Shown: one piece after another, positions 1 to 31,383 of the stretch
Layout: the number at the start of each line of letters is the position of its first letter
How positions within the stretch are numbered: position 1 is the first letter of the stretch
NCBI GenBank assembly: GCA_023267045.1
Contig: JAHFOB010000008.1
Location: 1-46,233 of the forward strand
Source of the DNA: Candidatus Zambryskiibacteriota bacterium
GTDB lineage: Bacteria > Patescibacteriota > Minisyncoccia > Phycocordibacterales > DATDWN01
Direction: 5' to 3'
DNA: 46,233 nt
Notes under the pieces: generated by a model
Told to the model about the DNA's origin: nothing
The model's input: only the letters and a program-made list of their open reading frames with translations
The model's database searches: none
Position numbers and translations under genes: made by a program

Positions 1-115
1 AGTTTCTGATTCTCATGTTTAAAGCCTATCATGTTTGCTAACAAGATAGGCTTTGCACATTCATCCCCGCCCTCACCAGGGAAGACGGGAGTCGGGCGGG
101 GTTCTCTGTGAATAG

Positions 116-562: not shown

Positions 563-2836
563 TTATTTGGCAACTGCCAGAGCCTCTTCAAAAGCAACTG
601 AAAGTAGTTTTGATCCCCCGCCGAGGCCCATTGTCACACCATAGAGAATTCCTGCGCGAGACATTGTTTCGCGATTGTGAGTTATAACGATCAGTTGTGA
701 TTTTCCAGAAAGATTTTCTACCATATCGGCATATTTTTTGGAATTGGCTTCATCAAGAGCCGCATCAGTTTCATCTAGAATAATAAACGGCGGAGGATTT
801 ACCTGTGAAATAGCAAAAAGGAGTGCGATAGAAGTCAACGCTCTCTCACCGCCAGAAAGCATCATCAGCCCTTTTACTTTTTTCTTTGGCAAATTTACTT
901 CAATATCTATTCCCTCCTCTCCTTCGACTTCGCTCAGGGCAAGTCCTTCTTCCATATCTTCATCTCCTAAATCCAAATCTGTGTCTTTTTTCTTGCGCTT
1001 AATCGGAACAGTCACAGAAAGTTTGGCTTCACCACCACCAAACATGAGTGAAAAATATTCTTTGAACTGCGTGTTTATTTTTTCCACTCCCGTTTTAAAC
1101 TCCGTTGAAAGCCGCATATCCAAATTAGCGATTAATTCTGTCAGAGATGTGGCAGATTTTTCCAAGTCCAAGAGCTCTTTTCCTAAAAAGGTATCTCTCT
1201 CGCTGGCTTCCGTGTATTCTTTCATGACATCCGCCTCACCAATACCACCACTATCCTCTAGTCTGATTTTTATTTTCTCTATTTTTCTTCGTCTCTCTTC
1301 TTGCTTTGCCCTCGATTCGTCTTCCTTCAAATTCCCCAAGGGTGACCCTTGGGGAGACTGAAACTGCAAAACATGAGTTCCGACCAAATGTCCGAGTTCT
1401 ATTAATTCCCTCTTGAAATCCTCTTTTAAGAGTCTCAAATTTTCCGACTCCAGTGACAAATCGTGAATTTTAGAACGAATTTCGCCGGATTCTGCCATAA
1501 TCCTGAAAACAGCTTTTTCGGCATCGCGATTTTTGTCTTTTTCTTTTTCAATTATATTTTTGAGTTTTGAATATTCGTCCGTTAGTTTATTTTCTCTCTC
1601 TTTTATTTCTTCCAGAGATTTTTCGATTTGTTTCTTCGATTTTTTTAAATTTTCTATATCCTTTTGGGCATCAGAGAGAAGTGACATGTCCACTTTGTCT
1701 TTGTTATGATCAATAAAGTCAGAAAGTCTGTGAGAGATTTCCTCGAGTGCTTCAAGCATGGCCTCCAAATTACCTTTTGACTTTGCTTCTTTGATTCTTG
1801 TTTCGATTGCAATAGACAAACTTTCAACAGAAACGAGTGTGACTGTTTTGTGCTCGTACGACTGTGCCACTTCTTCCTGTTTTTTGACAAGTTTTACAAG
1901 AGAGGAAATCTCTCCATCTAGTCTTCCAAAATCCCTGAACAAATTATCTTTTTCATCGCGGATTTTGTGGAGCGACTCTTCCAGTGAAATGAGTTTGTCA
2001 CTTTTTTCATCTTTGTTTTTGGCATTCTCCAGAATTGACTTGGTCGTATTTAATTCTTTTTCTAATTCTTTCTCTTTTTCCAGTAATGGCGATTTTAGAC
2101 TTTTAACTTTTGACTCACCCCTGTTTATATATTCGTCCTCCCGTCGCAAATACTCCAACGCTTCTTTCAGTAGCTCATCCTTCATCTCTACAGTTTTCTC
2201 CACTTTTTCTACCTGCTTTTTCAAAAACTTTATATGAGGCATTATTTCTCGTCGCAGAGACTCTACTTGTTTTATATTTTCTCGAGTTTTTTCCAACTTC
2301 CTTTCGCTTTCTTGTTTTTTATATTGATACATTTTGAGACCGAGAGCGTCCTCAATCATTGCTTTGCGTTCTTTTATGCTTGAGTTCAAAATTCTGTCTG
2401 CTTCACCTTGTGAAATAATATGATGTCCTGATGAGCCGATGTGCGCCGAAGCCAAAAGCTCCACAACGTCTCGAAGTCTGACCTGCGAACCATTTATCAA
2501 ATATTCGTTGACCGAGTCACGATGAACAACACGTTCTATGGTAACAATTTCGTAGTCCAGTGGCAAAAATTTACTACTGTTATCGAAAATAACTTTAACC
2601 GAAGCCCTGTTTGCCCTTGGCAAATCCCCCGCGCCGTTGAAAATAAGATCCTCGCCCTTTTTTCCTCGCAAACTTTTGATCGACTGCTCGCCTAAAACAA
2701 ACCGAAAGGCCTCTGCAATGTTCGACTTTCCCGAACCATTTGGTCCAACAATAGCCGAAACTTTCGATGTAAACTTAAGTTCGCTTTTCTTAGCGAACGA
2801 TTTAAAACCAGAGAGTTCAATGGATTTAAGATACAT
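563..2836 (-). CDS. smc: SMC-family ATPase, short form
   Basis: Walker A GPNGSGKSN, signature LSGGERALTSIALLFA, Walker B FIILDETDAALDE; 757 aa. Confidence 0.9.
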   Translation of the reverse strand: MYLKSIELSGFKSFAKKSELKFTSKVSAIVGPNGSGKSNIAEAFRFVLGEQSIKSLRGKKGEDLIFNGAGDLPRANRASVKVIFDNSSKFLPLDYEIVTIERVVHRDSVNEYLINGSQVRLRDVVELLASAHIGSSGHHIISQGEADRILNSSIKERKAMIEDALGLKMYQYKKQESERKLEKTRENIKQVESLRREIMPHIKFLKKQVEKVEKTVEMKDELLKEALEYLRREDEYINRGESKVKSLKSPLLEKEKELEKELNTTKSILENAKNKDEKSDKLISLEESLHKIRDEKDNLFRDFGRLDGEISSLVKLVKKQEEVAQSYEHKTVTLVSVESLSIAIETRIKEAKSKGNLEAMLEALEEISHRLSDFIDHNKDKVDMSLLSDAQKDIENLKKSKKQIEKSLEEIKERENKLTDEYSKLKNIIEKEKDKNRDAEKAVFRIMAESGEIRSKIHDLSLESENLRLLKEDFKRELIELGHLVGTHVLQFQSPQGSPLGNLKEDESRAKQEERRRKIEKIKIRLEDSGGIGEADVMKEYTEASERDTFLGKELLDLEKSATSLTELIANLDMRLSTEFKTGVEKINTQFKEYFSLMFGGGEAKLSVTVPIKRKKKDTDLDLGDEDMEEGLALSEVEGEEGIDIEVNLPKKKVKGLMMLSGGERALTSIALLFAISQVNPPPFIILDETDAALDEANSKKYADMVENLSGKSQLIVITHNRETMSRAGILYGVTMGLGGGSKLLSVAFEEALAVAK

Positions 2837-2966
2837 CCCGTAGTGAAAAATGACATCGCCCTACGAGCAGAATGTTATTTTTATTATAGTGTAAATAATG
2901 TCGACCATATTATATTATCATCTTAAGGGGTTTACCCCAATGTCATTTTCTACTACGGGATACATA

Positions 2967-3992
2967 TTAGACAATTAAATTTGTTACAAGCGCAACCATT
3001 GTTTCTTTTTCTTTTGGATCACTTTCGGCAATGAGAAGTGCCAAAGCCACCAACGTATTATCGTTGATTTTTTTCTCACCACCCTTACGATACAAAATTT
3101 TATTCAAATCTAAAAATAGGACGAACAGAAAAGAACCGATGCGTTTATTGCCATCAGAAAATGGATGATCCTTTATTATAAAATACAGCAGATGGGCAGC
3201 TTTTTCTTCCAAACTTCCATACACTTCTTTTCCGCCAAACGATTGATATATTCCAAGTAAAATTCCTTTGAAATTTCCGTCGCGTTCATTACCAAACAAA
3301 TCGCCAGCTTCACCCTTTGAAATAAGTTTTTTAGTTAGTTCATCAATTGCACTCCTAACAAAACCGTACTCGAGATGTTTTTTCTCTTTGATATTACTTT
3401 TTTGCAACAACAAACCGCCCTCATCGTATTTTTGAAGGAATGTCCAGGAATTTGCATAGTCTCGAATAACTGAAAGCAAACTATCGACTTCACCTTGATC
3501 CAGTTGTCGTTTACGAATAGTATCTTGAATAAAAGAGATTTTTTTGTTCAAGTCTGCCATGTGGTCATCCGAAAGTTTCTTAATTCTTTCTGTATTTAGA
3601 GCAACACCATGGATTATATAGTCATGCAAAGTTTCTGTAGCCCAGATTCGAAACTGAGTAGCTTGTTTTGAATTGACCCGATAGCCAACAGATAAAATCA
3701 CATCTAAATTATAGAATTCTATTTCACGAAAAACTTCTCTATTTCCTTCTTTTTGAACTGTTGCATTTTTTGCAACAGTTGAATTTTTATCAAGTTCGCC
3801 TGAACTAAAAATATCCTTGATGTGACGAGAAATAACAGATTTATCTCGTCCAAATAACTCTGCTATTTGATTAAGATTGGCCCAAATCGTGTCTTTGTTC
3901 ACATCTGCGCGCAAAGTGACATTACCTCGTGAACCACGATAAATGACAATCTCTTGTTGTTTTTTGGCAATGTTATTCAAACTTTTTTTCAT
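2967..3992 (-). CDS. RhuM-like protein with C-terminal Fic/Doc domain
   Basis: RhuM-like N-term (FYNLDVILSVGYRVNSKQATQFRIWATETL) and Fic motif HPFSDGNKR. Confidence 0.85.
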   Translation of the reverse strand: MKKSLNNIAKKQQEIVIYRGSRGNVTLRADVNKDTIWANLNQIAELFGRDKSVISRHIKDIFSSGELDKNSTVAKNATVQKEGNREVFREIEFYNLDVILSVGYRVNSKQATQFRIWATETLHDYIIHGVALNTERIKKLSDDHMADLNKKISFIQDTIRKRQLDQGEVDSLLSVIRDYANSWTFLQKYDEGGLLLQKSNIKEKKHLEYGFVRSAIDELTKKLISKGEAGDLFGNERDGNFKGILLGIYQSFGGKEVYGSLEEKAAHLLYFIIKDHPFSDGNKRIGSFLFVLFLDLNKILYRKGGEKKINDNTLVALALLIAESDPKEKETMVALVTNLIV

Positions 3993-12971: not shown

Positions 12972-13184
12972 AAATTACTGAATATTTAAATTTCAGAGAC
13001 TGCGGAAGCAATTAGAAAACAACAATAATATGAATAGCCCGAAGCGTTGTTTGAGCACTGGTAATCCAGGCGAGTTCGCGAAAGGGCACAGTTCATATTA
13101 TTGATTGTTTTCTTGATTGCTGAGCGAGAGCAAAATCGCAGTAGCGATTTATGCGTGCTCTGAAATTTAAATATTTAGTAATTT
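12972..13184. repeat. Long imperfect palindrome A (family 2)
   Basis: 27-bp outer arms AAATTACTGAATATTTAAATTTCAGAG / CTCTGAAATTTAAATATTTAGTAATTT (26/27 complementary), inner AT-rich arms and AAATCGC-AGTA-GCGATTT hairpin. Confidence 0.85.
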
Positions 13185-17314: not shown

Positions 17315-17340
17315 GTTTTACTTAAATTTCATCTCCATTA

Positions 17341-17369
17341 TTTACCCCTACATCGGAAGTCGGGGTAAA
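17341..17369. repeat. REP-like palindrome, RAYT 3' copy
   Basis: TTTACCCCTACATCGGAAGTCGGGGTAAA within the last codons of the RAYT gene. Confidence 0.85.
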
Positions 17370-17743
17370 TGTGAGCCATTCAAAAATCTCATCATCAAAA
17401 ACTTTTTGATCTAGAAAATAATCTGGGAAATCTTCTCGAGAAATTATTTTGTTTTCTAATCTTTTTTTGCCTCTAAAGTCGGGGTAGCTACTCCATTTAT
17501 ATTTATTGAGAAATTCTAAAGCTTTTTTGTTGTCCTTCAATCCATTCTCTTTCCATTTGGGAAAAATCATTTTCACTGGATTTAAATGAATATAAGAAAA
17601 AATGTATTTTAGATAGATATCACTACTCACATGAGTAGCTTTAAAATTTGATTCAAACAAACCGCCAACTCTCTCATATTTTTTATTAAAATACTTAGAA
17701 TACGCTAGACATAACTTTCTCATAAATACACTAATTGAATCTT

Positions 17744-17764
17744 CCCCGACTTCCGATGTAGGGG
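17744..17764. repeat. REP-like palindrome, internal RAYT copy
   Basis: CCCCGACTTCCGATGTAGGGG, encodes SPTSEVGE. Confidence 0.85.
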
Positions 17765-18046
17765 AGATGTTTAAAAGAAGATGAAAATGATTTGGCATTA
17801 GTACCCATGCTCCAATGGAAACAATGTCTTTGTTTTTTTTGAAATCCAAAGCATCGATATTTTTTTCCACAATATCATCACGAAAGTTAAAACTTTTATT
17901 AGAATTACACAAATAAAGAAGTTTGATGAACCTGTCCTTATCATTATCATCGAGAAAAATAATTTGCTTACTATTTCCCCTGTTATACAGATGATAAAAT
18001 TCACCCTCAACAAATTCTGTTTTTCTTTCAGCCATAATATACCTAT

Positions 18047-18075
18047 ACTACCCCGACTTCCGATGTAGGGGTAGT
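18047..18075. repeat. REP-like palindrome upstream of the RAYT start
   Basis: ACTACCCCGACTTCCGATGTAGGGGTAGT. Confidence 0.85.
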
Positions 18076-25138: not shown

Positions 25139-25311
25139 AACCAAAATCTCTTACTCTCCAAAACCTTTTCAGAGACACAAACTTTTCCAGCCAAAAGTTT
25201 CGTTCTGTCCTCGGGCTTGATTTGTCAATTTCCGCTATCGCTCAATTGACAAAACCATGCTCAAGCCCTGCGGGTGCTCTGAAAAGGTTTTGGTTCGACG
25301 AGATTTTGGTT
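25139..25311 (-). repeat. Long structured palindrome B (family 1, minus orientation)
   Basis: AACCAAAATCTC..GAGATTTTGGTT outer arms; CCAAAACCTTTTCAGAG/CTCTGAAAAGGTTTTGG inner arms. Confidence 0.88.
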
Positions 25312-25381
25312 AGTGGTAAATTTTTACGAGAAAAGCCACACACGTGTGAAAGCTGTGAAAGCTTTTCTCGTGTGTAGCTAA

Positions 25382-25729
25382 TTACTTGCGAACCAAGACG
25401 ATTTGAAAACATGAATCATCTCGCTCAAGTGCCTCAACATCGTGTGCGAACGGGTGATTTTCCGGATTCAGGTCGTACAAAGGGTAATCATCGAATGTAG
25501 AAACCCCGTAAATCACATCACGACCCCATTCAGCCCTTCGAATCGGATCATCGTCCAATTTAACCCGAATTGGCTTATGGGTTCCGATGTTGCCATACCT
25601 GTCCGTGTTGATATAGAACAACTCGGCTCCCGGATTGATGTCGTTACGCTCTGCAAGACGGTATCCTGACAGAACATGTTGGGATTCTTCAAGAAATCTT
25701 TTCTTACTGAAGTGTCGCTGCCATTCCAT
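25382..25729 (-). CDS. hypothetical protein (115 aa) in a cassette bracketed by elements B and C
   Basis: ORF from MEWQRHFSKK with TGGAGA SD; TTGACA-16-TATTGT promoter at 25747-25774; hairpin at 25326-25372. Confidence 0.55.
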   Translation of the reverse strand: MEWQRHFSKKRFLEESQHVLSGYRLAERNDINPGAELFYINTDRYGNIGTHKPIRVKLDDDPIRRAEWGRDVIYGVSTFDDYPLYDLNPENHPFAHDVEALERDDSCFQIVLVRK

Positions 25730-25780
25730 TGATGTCTCCAATGATTACAATACTAAATTTTGGCGATATGTCAAGTCTAG

Positions 25781-25950
25781 CAAAATCTCGTTGAAATAAT
25801 CTTTTCGGAAGACCCCGCAGACCGCAAGCATGGTCTTGTCAAACGACGAGCGAAGCGAGTGAGATTGACAAGTTGCGGTTGAGGACAAAGTGAGCTTTTC
25901 GCTGGAAAAGCGAGCGGTCTGGAGAAAAGATTATTGAGAAAGAGATTTTG
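25781..25950 (+). repeat. Long structured palindrome C (family 1, plus orientation)
   Basis: CAAAATCTC..GAGATTTTG; ATAATCTTTTC/GAAAAGATTAT; conserved CCCGCAG, GCATGGT, GAGGAC. Confidence 0.85.
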
Positions 25951-25955
25951 TAAAA

Positions 25956-26930
25956 TTATTCCTCATCCACACCTCCCACTGATTGACCATTAAAACTCTC
26001 CATAGCCTCTAGGATCGGCTCGATGCCACCTGCCAGGATTTTTTCGATATTGTGCCATGACTGTTTGATACGATGATCAGTGATGCGATCCTGCAAAATG
26101 TTATAGGTACGGATTTTCTCTGATCTGTCTGCGGTTCCTATCTGGTCTTTACGATCAGCAGAGTATTTTTTGGATTCTTCTTCGTCTTTTAGCATTTGCA
26201 GTTTTGCCACCAGAATAGACATCGCTCTCTCACGGTTTTTGAGCTGGCTTCTCTCCGCTGTTGAACGAACATCAATGCCTGTTGCTTTGTGAATTATACG
26301 CACTGCAGTTTCTACTTTATTCACATTTTGGCCTCCAGCTCCTCCAGAGCGACTAGTTTCAATCTCAATATCAGCAGGCTTTATTTCAATTGTAGTTTTC
26401 TTACGAAGAGGAAGAACGGCAACAGTTGCTGTGGAAGTGTGTACACGACCCATTTTCTCTGTCGACGGAACTCTTTGAACACGATGCACGCCAGTTTCAT
26501 AACGCAAAGTTTTGTAAACACCTTTTCCACGAATTTCAAACGAAGCTTCTTTGTATCCACCAACAGAGCTCAAAGACTCATCTATTTTTGAGACAACCCA
26601 ACCTTGGTTTTCAGCGTATCTGGTATACATGTGAGCCAGCTCCTCTGCAAACAGAGAGGCTTCTTCACCGCCAGCACCAGCTCGAACTTCGAGAATAATT
26701 TCATTAGGAAATTCTTCCCCCTTTTCATCCTCTGCTAAAATTTCCTGCATTTGTTTCAAAATAGCATCTTTTTGGGCTCTTAAATTTTCCAATTCCGAGT
26801 GCGCCAAATCCCGAAGCGTTGGATCGCTCTCTATCATTTTCTTTGTTTCCATTTCTTCACGTTCAAGCTTTTTATAACTTTCGGCCAGATAGGAAGTCTT
26901 ATTATTTTGTGAGAATTTTTCTAGGTCCAT
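25956..26930 (-). CDS. prfA: peptide chain release factor 1
   Basis: [42 protein letters not shown]-type motif. Confidence 0.95.
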
Positions 26931-27000
26931 CAGAACAATTTTCAATTTTTAATTTACAATTTTTAATGAATTTTCAATGTCTCAATTTATAAAGTATAGC

Positions 27001-27140
27001 AAAATAACGAAGCTTCGTTGACTCATAACTTTTACGGCATATCTCGGAGCGAGTGTATCGCGAGAGCAAGGAAATTTTTCAGTAGAAAAATATTCCGGTG
27101 CCGGAAAAATTATGAGGAGAAAGAAACTTCGTTATTTTTT
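27001..27140. repeat. Long imperfect palindrome D (family 2), overlaps rpmE stop codon
   Basis: AAATAACGAAG..CTTCGTTATTT; CGAGAGCAAG-stem-AGTA-stem shared with element A. Confidence 0.75.
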
Positions 27141-27395
27141 ACCAGCCTTTGCTTTTGCAACTCGTGCTTTAAACTTTTCAGCTCTACCCGCTGTATCTAG
27201 TGACTTCTCATTTCCAGTATAAAAAGGGTGTGAAGCTGAAGAAACTTCTAGTCTGTATAGTGGATATTCCTTGCCATTTTTTGCCTTGGCTTTTTCGGTT
27301 GTGTGAACAGTAGATGCGATAATAAACTCGGCGCCATTGCTGTTGTCGATAAATAGTACTTCCTTATAATCCTTTGGATGTATGTCTTTTTTCAT
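27132..27395 (-). CDS. rpmE: 50S ribosomal protein bL31
   Basis: [43 protein letters not shown]. Confidence 0.88.
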
Positions 27396-27555
27396 AATTA
27401 CGAATTATGCGAATGTAATCGAATTTACAAATAAATCGAAAAATTCAGTCGCCAACCATCCTACCAAAAAAGCCTCCATTTGGCAAGATTTTGAAAAATA
27501 GAATAAGTGTGCTAGAAATATCGAAGAAACAAATAACAGACACGGAGGTGTCATA

Positions 27556-27960
27556 ATGAGGCTCTTAAAGAGAATTCTCGGTTTTATGGGTCTACCAGTT
27601 TTTAAAGCAACCAAGTGCGGACACTTCACAAAAAATAAAGGTTTTGTCTCTGCGTTTGGAGAAACAATCACCACCAAGATGCCAGTCCAGTCTGATGGCT
27701 CTTATGAATGGTGCCTTAGTTGCATCGAGAAAATGGCTATTAAGTGCGCTTGGTGCAACAAGGGAATAATGATCGGCGATATTGTCACAGTCTCTGCCAT
27801 TGATTCCCATCCACACCTTCACAAGAATTTGGTATTTGTGAAAGAAGAAACTGAGGCACTTTTGGGTTGTCTCAGAGAAAGTTGTGGTCTAGCAAGCGAG
27901 GCAGGAGGTCGTTGGATACCGGGCGAAGATGGCCATGGTAAAGTTGGTAGTTTGTTGTAA
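27556..27960 (+). CDS. Cys/His-rich hypothetical protein
   Basis: GGAGGT SD; CLSC and CAWC motifs; followed by terminator AGCGGCTGACAG-ATA-CTGTCAGCCGCTTTT. Confidence 0.55.
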   Translation: MRLLKRILGFMGLPVFKATKCGHFTKNKGFVSAFGETITTKMPVQSDGSYEWCLSCIEKMAIKCAWCNKGIMIGDIVTVSAIDSHPHLHKNLVFVKEETEALLGCLRESCGLASEAGGRWIPGEDGHGKVGSLL

Positions 27961-28049
27961 TTTCCTAAGAAATTCTCTACGCCAAGATAGCGGCTGACAG
28001 ATACTGTCAGCCGCTTTTGCTGTTTAGAAAATAAATAAAAACTACTTAT

Positions 28050-28168
28050 AACTTTTAAAACTAGATGCAGTTCTAGGCGGAAAGGTAAATGGACGAGGAG
28101 CCTTACATGTCGTAAGGTGACGAGAACATTTACCTTTCCAACAACGAAATGCGCTAGTTTTAAAAGTT
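28050..28168. repeat. Long palindrome E (family 3), overlaps stop codon of 28160-29542
   Basis: AACTTTTAAAACTAG/CTAGTTTTAAAAGTT; GGAAAGGTAAATG/CATTTACCTTTCC; CCTTAC-N-GTAAGG. Confidence 0.88.
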
Positions 28169-29542
28169 AAGGGGGTCGATCATGGTTGTTTGAATATTCT
28201 CGGCAATGGACATAACACTATTTCCATACGACAGATTCGGTGGTCTCCGTGTTGATGAACATGACGAGCCAGAGTAATATTTACAAGCCGCGTTACGCTC
28301 TGCTGTGTACGAGCCAGAAACTGCACCGAGTTCCGACATGTACACAGCCGTTGCCATGAAAGCATCTCTAGGATTCCACGGGTTAGCGGAATCTCCAGAA
28401 ATTCCAAGCATATTTCCAACCTTATCTTTGAACAATTCCCATGTCGAAGGAATAAACTGTGATGGTCCCATCCCCCCACCATACCCTCTACTTGATGTAT
28501 AGTTCGTGCCAAGTGGACAAGAAACTGGAGTAGTTTTCCAATCTCCACCAATTCGATTCATAATATTTTGAAATGGCACAGTATCTCTCGGAGCTTTCAT
28601 AACTTTTTCAAAAAATGTCCCTGTATTTTTACCAACACCATCTCCAGTATCCAAACTACTAACAATACAGGCGCCAACATTTTGTCCCAAGTTTGATTCT
28701 TGAGTGATAATAGCCAGAAGAAATGCTGGTCTGACACCTGTTTTTGCTCCAGCATCTTGAGCATATTTTAACGCATCTCCAAAAGGAATAGCTGCTGAGT
28801 CGCGAAGTTTGAAAAGAGCCGCTCGTATTTGAGCTGCATGTTGCTGGCGTTCGGAAAGGACCTGCTGGTATGTTTTTTCTTGAGTTTTATTTACACTAAT
28901 CAAATATTCTTTCTCTTTTTCATTTGCTTCGACTTGTTTTTGCTGAACTTGAGCGGCAACTTTTGTATCAGTTTCTTTGTTTTTCTGGAGATCGAGTGCC
29001 TCTTTTTCTTTTTCGGTCAAATCTTTTGTAGCACGAACTTGGACAAAAAGATCTTTGAGAGAATTGCCGACTTGCTGAAAGCTATCAATATCACTAAAAA
29101 AATCAGAAATATTTTGATTGCCAAGCATTATCTCTGGCAAACTGTATTGATCAATCTCGTTTGTCTGACGAAGCAGTTGCCCCAACGACTCATGACCTTT
29201 GCTTATTTGATCTTCGAGACTTGCTATGTGAGCGTTTTTCTTTGCAATATCTTGATCGAGTTGAGCGATTGCGATATTTTTCTTTTTTATAAGAGCTTTG
29301 GCTTGCTGAATTTTGGCATTGAGCAATGCCGCCTCTTGTTGGAGAGACTTCGTGTTAGCTTTTGTAGAATCCAATATAGACTGCCATTTAGCGATATCTG
29401 CCTCTGTTTGCGCTAGTTCATCTCGCCACTGCTGTTCCTGTTCTGCGTCAGTTAGAGCAAAAACCGCTCTGTATTGCAGAAAAAAGCCTGAAAATATAGT
29501 CAGAAAGACAAAAAAAGCAATTACAAACAACCGTTTTTGCAT
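28160..29542 (-). CDS. secreted coiled-coil protein with lytic transglycosylase-like C-terminal domain
   Basis: signal-like MQKRLFVIAFFVFLTIFSGFFLQ; coiled coil; FLLAIITQESNLGQNVG..GGGMGPSQFIPSTWE. Confidence 0.8.
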   Translation of the reverse strand: MQKRLFVIAFFVFLTIFSGFFLQYRAVFALTDAEQEQQWRDELAQTEADIAKWQSILDSTKANTKSLQQEAALLNAKIQQAKALIKKKNIAIAQLDQDIAKKNAHIASLEDQISKGHESLGQLLRQTNEIDQYSLPEIMLGNQNISDFFSDIDSFQQVGNSLKDLFVQVRATKDLTEKEKEALDLQKNKETDTKVAAQVQQKQVEANEKEKEYLISVNKTQEKTYQQVLSERQQHAAQIRAALFKLRDSAAIPFGDALKYAQDAGAKTGVRPAFLLAIITQESNLGQNVGACIVSSLDTGDGVGKNTGTFFEKVMKAPRDTVPFQNIMNRIGGDWKTTPVSCPLGTNYTSSRGYGGGMGPSQFIPSTWELFKDKVGNMLGISGDSANPWNPRDAFMATAVYMSELGAVSGSYTAERNAACKYYSGSSCSSTRRPPNLSYGNSVMSIAENIQTTMIDPLNF

Positions 29543-29605
29543 CACATAATTATACACCAAAATACAGACGTTTTGGAAGTAAAATTGTTACTAAAACAAT
29601 AGAGA

Positions 29606-30352
29606 TTATTTTGCTTGCTCTTTCTTTGGAGATTCTTTTGGAGTATCACCTGTGGCTTCAGCGCCTTCCTCATCCTTTTTACCTTTCTTTTCTACTTCAA
29701 TAGCTGACAAATCAACTGGAGCCTCTTCCACTTCCTCTTCTTTTGGAGCTGCTGCTGATGCAACTACTTGGTCAGCTGATTCGGCCAATGTTACACCTGT
29801 TGGAAGTACGATACTAGATGCAACAATAGTACTACCGAAATCAATTAAGCTAGAAATATCAACCTGCAATCCTCGTGGCAAGTTTTGCGGTTCTGCAGAA
29901 ATTTTAAGTTCATGGAGAACTTTAATCAAACTTCCTCCTAAATCTTTCACCGCTGGAGCACTACCCACGAATTCAAGTGGCACAGAAATTTCCAGTTTCT
30001 TTCCTTTTTCGAATACATAAAAATCTGCGTGACGAGGAATATCAGTTACAGGATCATAGTCCACAGAGTGGATGAGCGTATCAAAAGAGCCTTCTGGACT
30101 TTTTAACGTAACAACTGAAGACTCACCTGCTGTGTGCCAGGCTTTAACAAACTCTTTATGAATAAGGGTTATTGGGGTTGATTCTGTTTTCTTACTTTGC
30201 CCTGTAGCGTGCTGTTTACCACGTACTGAGCTTTGCTCTAGTACTGTGGCACTGCTACCGGGGCCATAAAAAACAGCTGGCATCTTGCCCTCTTTTCGGA
30301 GTTGCGAGACGTCTTCTGTATTTTCGCGCTTTGTTGCAGTTAAAGTTAACAT
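29606..30352 (-). CDS. rplY: 50S ribosomal protein bL25 (CTC-type)
   Basis: MLTLTATKRENTEDVSQLRKEGKMPAVFYGPG..LIHSVDYDPVTDIPRHADFYVF. Confidence 0.88.
   Translation of the reverse strand: MLTLTATKRENTEDVSQLRKEGKMPAVFYGPGSSATVLEQSSVRGKQHATGQSKKTESTPITLIHKEFVKAWHTAGESSVVTLKSPEGSFDTLIHSVDYDPVTDIPRHADFYVFEKGKKLEISVPLEFVGSAPAVKDLGGSLIKVLHELKISAEPQNLPRGLQVDISSLIDFGSTIVASSIVLPTGVTLAESADQVVASAAAPKEEEVEEAPVDLSAIEVEKKGKKDEEGAEATGDTPKESPKKEQAK
30220..30250. repeat. 31-bp bulged palindrome, copy 3 (in rplY)
   Basis: CCACGTACTGAGCTTTGCTCTAGTACTGTGG. Confidence 0.85.
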
Positions 30353-30404
30353 GGTGGCCAGTATACATAAATTGTTTGGAACAATCAAGAGCGTTTCTGT
30401 TGTA

Positions 30405-30590
30405 CTAACAAAATCTCTTACTCACCAAAACCTTTTCAGAGACACAAACTTTTCCAGCCAAAAGTTTGTTCTAGTCCTCAGGCTTGATTTGTCAATTTCA
30501 CCCCTCGCTTTGCTCGGGATCAATTGACAAAACCATGCTCAAGCCCTGCGGGTGCTCTGAAAAGGTTTTGGTTCAACGAGATTTTGTTAG
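30405..30590 (-). repeat. Long structured palindrome F (family 1), close copy of B
   Basis: CTAACAAAATCTC/GAGATTTTGTTAG perfect 13-bp termini, interior nearly identical to B. Confidence 0.9.
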
Positions 30591-30664
30591 CTGTAAAGTT
30601 ACTTTGGTTTACTACTAAGCATCAACATGTCAACCTGGCAGGTTGACATGTTGATTTTTGTAAA

Positions 30665-31113
30665 AGAAGTGACCCGGGAAACTCGCGTTTCCCGGGCCGG
30701 TATTGAAGATTCAACTCTCCTTGCAAACAAGTTTGCAAGATTCTAGGACAATCTTCCTGCCTGAGTGCTTCCAACGTCGATTATGTCCTTTCCTAAGGGA
30801 CCAACGCCAGAACCCAGAAACCACTACACCTGTTTGTAGCAAAGCGATATTGAGTCGCTCTGTAAAAAGTTACAGGAACATCAGGATCTCTATGGAAAGC
30901 TTTTGAGCAAAACTCTCCTCCTGAGCTGGCAGCTATGATGAATGCTTTTACATCCGTGGATCTACTCTTGCCGGATCATAGCTCATATCCTTCGAGTAGG
31001 TACTCGAAGGGTGCTCTTATGAGAGAATCGTTGAAAATTATTGATGTGGTTCTGAGGAGCTAGAGAGAACTAGCGCCTCTTGCCTATGCGAAACCCGCTC
31101 ACGGAACCTCCCG
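30665..31113 (-). ncRNA. Putative structured ncRNA (about 450 nt), unknown family
   Basis: consensus TTGACA-16-TATAAT promoter (31120-31147), many local hairpins, terminal CCCGGGAAAC-GCGA-GTTTCCCGGG hairpin, no SD-led long ORF. Confidence 0.6.
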
Positions 31114-31183
31114 TCCGCTATTATACATTACTGATTAATATTGTCAAATATGAAAAATACCCCTATAAACTAGGCTTTTTCAG

Positions 31184-31370
31184 CTAACAAAATCTCGTCG
31201 AATCTTACACAGTTCTGGAGACCCCGCAGTGCCAGAAGCATGGTTCCGTCAACGACCACGAGCAAAGCGAGGGGCTCATTGACGGATTCTGGCCGAGGAC
31301 AGGGCTTAAAAATTTCGCAGGAAATTTTTAAGCTAGCTCCAGAACTGTGTAAGTTCGTAAGAGATTTTGT
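31184..31370 (+). repeat. Long structured palindrome G (family 1, plus orientation)
   Basis: CAAAATCTCGTCGAA..TTCGTAAGAGATTTTG; CTTACACAGTTCTGGAG/CTCCAGAACTGTGTAAG. Confidence 0.88.
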
Positions 31371-31383
31371 GAATACTAAGAGA

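Follow-up and report, generated by a model that had tools for sequence, protein, structure and literature searches.

REP sequences and BIMEs, tagged by GTAG or CGTC and mobilised by TnpA-REP/RAYT proteins, are multi-copy extragenic palindromes, the individual REP being a simple hairpin of 20-40 nt with its tag at the foot. Head-to-head dimers predominate among them and lie less than 20 bp from the 3' ends of ORFs (PMC3733652), REPs can themselves supply the stop codon (PMC3733652, PMC8266576), and their cleavage requires the single-stranded fold of one strand (PMC8266576). A second group, comprising ERIC (127 bp), YPAL/RU-2 (168 bp), RUP, Correia/NEMIS and the Rickettsia palindromic elements, consists of non-autonomous intergenic palindromes of 100-200 bp, and the targets of YPAL span or adjoin dyad symmetry (PMC2229807). 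Most repeats of this kind end in TA, have terminal repeats of fixed sequence and are flanked by target duplications, and their transcripts would form long stem-loops. Integron attC sites follow stop codons, and the strand that folds is the antisense one. In these sites the fold of one strand matters more than the sequence (PMC2727003).

Here we describe a family of dispersed palindromic repeats that came to light in a stretch of 46,233 nt (the window) from a Candidatus Zambryskiibacteriota bacterium (GCA_023267045.1, contig JAHFOB010000008.1). The first-pass annotation had reported four long elements, B, C, F and G, whose positions and orientations were confirmed on the sequence; the covariance model bounds them at 25140-25310(-), 25779-25952(+), 30407-30588(-) and 31186-31371(+), respectively. 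The window contains the following elements:

25139-25311, minus strand: element B, long (Family 1) copy; start codon of rpsB about 50 bp beyond its 3' end
25781-25950, plus strand: element C, long (Family 1) copy; adjoined at its 3' end by the stop codon of prfA, which lies on the opposite strand
30405-30590, minus strand: element F, long (Family 1) copy; ORF of rplY (L25/TL5) starting 17 bp beyond its 3' end
31184-31370, plus strand: element G, long (Family 1) copy; stop codon of fba, on the opposite strand, at a distance of 12-14 bp from its 3' end
27001-27138, plus strand: short (about 130 bp, Family 2) copy, overlapping the rpmE (L31) stop
12972-13184, minus strand: possible divergent relative, with 27-nt arms beginning 2 nt past a stop codon

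Elements B and F are 89% identical. The short copy has the CGTTGA/GAGAAAG loop of the long family, with P1 replaced by complementary AAAATAACGAAG/CTTCGTTATTTT, and the candidate relative has the inner arm TTTCAGAG and a core resembling TGCGGAAGC.

We consider these elements to be palindromic repeats, dispersed and non-autonomous, that function in the manner of REP sequences, only oversized and branched, a reading to which we give a probability of roughly 0.55; most likely they spread as short REP hairpins do in other bacteria, though they are far larger, measuring 123-190 nt and enclosing a three-way junction. Repeats of the ERIC/YPAL type match them in size only, as non-autonomous intergenic palindromes whose transcripts would form long stem-loops, whereas in the present elements the P1 ends vary with compensation, the three-way junction is conserved, and inspection of near-identical copies in different flanks revealed no target duplication. 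The attC sites are alike in having arms that vary yet stay complementary, in their placement at stop codons and in the folding of the antisense strand, but the elements are scattered singly, form no cassette array and, by inspection, have no consistent RYYYAAC/GTTRRRY boxes.

A branched fold carried by one strand

The best supported architecture starts from a base helix P1, typically AAAATCTC/GAGATTTT, and continues through an asymmetric internal loop (CGTYGA/GAGWAAG) and a long helix P2 to a three-way junction, one branch of which is made of P3, a 7-nt bulge (GCATGGT) and P4 (GTCAA...TTGAC) and the other of P5 with a CGCTGG or CGCAGG loop, while CCGCAG and GAGGAC form short conserved unpaired linkers. 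All the helices and unpaired motifs listed at first pass were found in the elements. The element ends read, by inspection, CAAAATCTC / GAGATTTTG and are variable, and three copies in the same genome retain the core with entirely different self-complementary arms. Folded as single DNA strands, B, C and G reach -50.4, -37.9 and -56.0 kcal/mol (z of -9.9, -6.8 and -11.8; none of the 200 shuffles made for each element folded as well); element F was folded as RNA only.

The proposal that the helices diverge in sequence and stay complementary also holds on 96 independent copies from other genomes, none of them used in training. In their alignment to the covariance model 92.8% of cells are paired and 61 of the 65 pairs show two-sided change, with none of 500 shuffles coming near, and pairing falls to 39-49% when the partners are slid by 1-3 columns. 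Together with the single-strand folds, this covariation supports the original view of a selected RNA or single-stranded DNA fold rather than a decayed repeat. Because a model alignment leans towards structure, departures from pairing were counted separately without the model, which gave 30 G.T against 2 A.C in P2 (p=2.5e-7); a second set, gathered separately but partly overlapping with the first, gave ratios of 30:4 in long and 15:2 in short elements, and P1 is without wobble bias (5:11). The excess of G.T in P2 is not expected of a double-stranded cruciform or of a fold of the opposite strand, so that one strand folds, and this is the strand originally designated plus. By itself, the wobble asymmetry cannot separate RNA from single-stranded DNA.

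A strand-specific fold with unpaired motifs is a likeness to REPs. The REP tag stands at the foot of the hairpin, however, while the CGTY of the elements separates P1 from P2 within the stem and is lacking from several copies. If the elements do work like REPs, one DNA strand would fold into P1, the internal loop, P2 and the P3/P4-P5 junction, and a trans-acting enzyme would recognise this single-stranded DNA fold through its conserved unpaired motifs; copies would then be inserted or retained at the 3' ends of genes, the 3' end of the fold facing the stop codon. Since the arms need only complementarity, they may drift or be exchanged by recombination.

Distribution and placement at gene ends

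BLAST searches with F and G found many dispersed copies in the same genome (750 kb, 31 contigs), and the covariance-model scan proposed with the first description yielded further copies in the genome, the genus, the family and the class. Built from 16 copies of the own genome, where copies were read stretch by stretch around the matches, the model gave 35 matches there, 22 long and 13 weaker, the latter mostly short elements of about 130 bp, a sister family that has the termini/P1 and the internal loop in common with the long one and differs in its interior; in total, 750 kb hold about 22 full long and 12-13 short copies. Matches were also obtained in all 11 other genomes of the genus, in four of five further genomes of the family, in some ten genomes belonging to the order's other families and, in a sample of the class, in 41 of 384 genomes at E<=1e-6. 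A strict sequence pattern returned 48 stretches across 84,980 species, nearly all of them from Parcubacteria (Zambryskibacteria, Nomurabacteria, Lloydbacteria, Paceibacterota, Patescibacteria group) and the remaining ones from uncultured bacteria. Carriage by phages was rejected, with no exact pattern match among 2.9 million viral contigs. Near-complete genomes carry from none or few up to 24 copies, and the scanned genomes together hold well over a hundred, enough to work out the recognising factor.

No described RNA family, which the Rfam check suggested at first pass could have uncovered, was identified: no Rfam model matched the elements at the gathering score, and the best sub-threshold matches are chance-like. 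The literature searched on Patescibacteria repeats or structured RNAs contained nothing on this family, nor a paper describing structured repeats in CPR genomes. CPR genomes are small and mostly uncultured. In them the family is an example, open to testing, of a repeat in which the fold is conserved and not the sequence, and it may define gene ends in a phylum whose transcription termination is largely unstudied. It is possible, if rather doubtful, that the elements represent a class-wide Paceibacteria superfamily of mobile DNA with a branched single-stranded fold of 125-190 nt, its shape recognised via the conserved unpaired motifs, its arms freely rewritten and its movement due to an enzyme other than Y1.

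The copies are placed with a strong preference. Among the 89 that have genes on both sides, the genes being script-called, unannotated long open frames, 56 have the stop codon of an opposing gene within -12..+16 nt of the folding strand's 3' end, which often overlaps it, against 8 whose 5' end is near a facing stop (Fisher p=2e-14). B and F are exceptional, their 3' ends facing the start regions of rpsB and rplY, respectively. Neighbouring copies within 1 kb form 19 pairs, 15 of them head-to-head, none tail-to-tail and 4 tandem, and head-to-head dimers near ORF 3' ends are again a likeness to REPs; most of these pairs are 0-40 bp apart with no gene between. The layout is largely due to each 3' end facing a neighbouring gene end, as a convergent gene pair with an element at each stop codon yields the head-to-head arrangement. 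Upstream of P1, a flank reading (A)CCACTAA or (A)CAGCTAA recurs in some copies, and CCACT, which may mark an element end or a preferred target, stands at position -6 in 9 of 97 five-prime flanks.

The surroundings of the copies also bear on whether the fold acts in RNA, the sense strand being transcribed either into an antisense RNA or within the 3'-terminal part of an opposing transcript and serving, for instance, as a processing site, a protein-binding site or a barrier to antisense transcription. Convergent layouts would allow read-through transcription of the sense strand, and covariation, wobble asymmetry and purine-rich internal loops are as in a structured RNA. Promoter-like sites in the 5' flank are, however, not enriched in the sense direction (6 sense and 9 antisense among 97), the 0-40 bp between head-to-head partners are too few to accommodate a promoter, and of 56 copies flanked by co-directional genes, 38 have a sense strand antisense to both neighbours, against 18. 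With a copy number that ranges among near-complete genomes as widely as given above, unlike that of a host RNA gene, we regard a structured RNA as unlikely.

Both pairs of long elements in the window enclose an insert:

25312-25780, minus strand: B-C insert, with a promoter-like site, a 119-aa ORF (25382-25741) and a hairpin
30591-31183, minus strand: F-G insert, with a TTGACA-17-TATAAT promoter on the minus strand and a GC-rich hairpin near its end

The first-pass annotation had read these as cassettes carried by the elements, B/C bracketing a 115-aa gene and F/G a putative 450-nt ncRNA. An ORF of 115-119 aa is indeed bracketed by B and C; it has no Pfam match, and bracketing does not establish membership of the element. 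The stretch between F and G, about 590 bp, has the strong minus-strand promoter and no ORF longer than 67 aa, and yielded no Rfam match. The inner ends that F and G have in common are real and fit the conserved 5' flank before P1, not a cassette junction. At the orthologous prfA-rpsB and fba-rplY sites relatives carry unrelated small-gene inserts, with or without elements. Different small ORFs occupy these sites in different species (window, L107, L111, L113, L114, L127, L133), several with strong TTGACA-17-TATAAT promoters. Transport of cassettes was therefore rejected, given similar inserts without elements and mostly closely spaced element pairs without inserts, and elements and inserts seem simply to occupy the same permissive gaps. 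The description as a non-autonomous mobile structured element stands, resting on the fold, the covariation, the further copies and their dispersal.

Turnover and mosaic structure

In one relative, copies 99.4% and 98.3% identical lie in unrelated flanks, the similarity stopping at the element ends. Downstream of fba, a long element is found in genomes G000 and G009, a short one in G004 and G005, a different palindrome family in G007, a bare 8-bp hairpin (AAAATCTC-TTTTTAAC-GAGATTT) in G010 and nothing recognisable in some species, so that turnover is seen at one orthologous site compared between species. In G003, copies at L140:5732-5906 and L185:1527-1709 are 99.3% identical over 146 bp and have a common 5' break point and 5' arms that are unrelated, suggestive of the copying of a 5'-truncated form.

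The repeats are mosaics, their helices reshuffled by recombination or their cores entering new hairpins. Where the cores of two copies are at least 85% identical, the mean identity of the outer arms is only 0.57, hardly higher than the 0.48 of pairs whose cores are 50-65% identical, and there is only a weak correlation among the identities of the helices P3/P4, P5, P2 and P1 (r 0.06-0.21). The second of these routes can be cast as a parasitic core of about 130 nt, containing the three-way junction, that enters the loops of stop-codon hairpins and takes the arms of its target. It would account for copies with more than 90% identical cores and unrelated, perfectly self-complementary arms (L171/L189, core 94%; L164/L178, 92%), long hairpins that begin at stop codons abound in these genomes even where the core is lacking, and the bare hairpin at the fba site of G010 would be such a target. 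Yet near-identical copies sometimes have the same arms too (L175/L182, L160/L133), the wobbles in the arms are biased towards the strand antisense to the gene, the reverse of what a terminator for that gene would require, and several copies keep a conserved CCACTAAGC before and GYG after the variable arms, which speaks against core entry as the whole story. Reassortment, moreover, is no less free among the core helices than among the arms (P3P4 with P5, r=0.10), so that general recombination explains the mosaicism equally well, and we hold core parasitism to be quite improbable. Bidirectional intrinsic terminators, copied round the genome and kept by selection for termination, would suit the stop-codon position, the A-tract/T-tract at the hairpin base and the short space left for any other terminator ahead of the next gene, but are very improbable, as there is no T excess after the 3' end (2.9 T against 3.1 A before the 5' end, of 8; p=0.25) and the conserved branched core with its 7-nt bulge is not needed for termination.

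Candidate mobilisers and further palindromes

The REP-like reading presupposes a single-stranded DNA intermediate, an enzyme and an insertion step, all of which we infer. The genome encodes one IS200-type and three REP-associated (RAYT-type) Y1 transposases, and all three RAYT-type genes have short REPs of their own on their flanks, a different one for each gene and unrelated to the elements. One such REP, ATGTCAACCTGCCAGGTTGACAT, belongs to the RAYT-type gene of contig C24 and recurs at window 30621-30655, inside the F-G insert beside element F. In the window, a 237-aa RAYT-type ORF (17322-18035) has the REP palindrome CCCCGACTTCCGATGTAGGGG flanking and within it (near 17340-17365, 17750-17772 and 18050-18075), and the other two genes (C13, C24) have different REPs. 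The terminal hairpin at window 15-60, as found beside the IS200-type transposase gene on contig C15, suggests an IS200 end at the contig edge.

Across 99 genomes, Y1 genes are present in 19 of 26 with elements and in 44 of 73 without (Fisher p=0.34). The seven element-bearing genomes that have none include the near-complete G005, G011 and G002, and one 97% complete genome holds 19 copies and no Y1 gene. A RAYT or IS200 transposase as the sole mobiliser was rejected on the RAYT genes' own REPs and this absence of co-occurrence, and no mobilising enzyme was found. IS200/IS605 elements have a lagging-strand-template habit; if co-directional neighbours follow the replication fork, the bias of 38 versus 18 opposes it. 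That the elements work like a REP is well supported; membership among the REPs is not, because size, branching, tag position and the link to RAYTs fail or are ambiguous.

Two further palindrome families occur in the window. The third family, about 125 bp long and situated at stop codons, is found at window 28049-28169 and in L066, L115, L126, L175 and L181, and has the core CTCGTCACCTTAC...GTAAGG, an internal loop GGCGCATTTCGTTG/GAACTGCATCC and variable complementary arms. The fourth (CCCGTAGTAGAAAATGACAT ... ATGTCATTTTTCACTACGGG) overlaps a stop codon at window 2827-2969 and has a relative in L125, beside rplY in G004.
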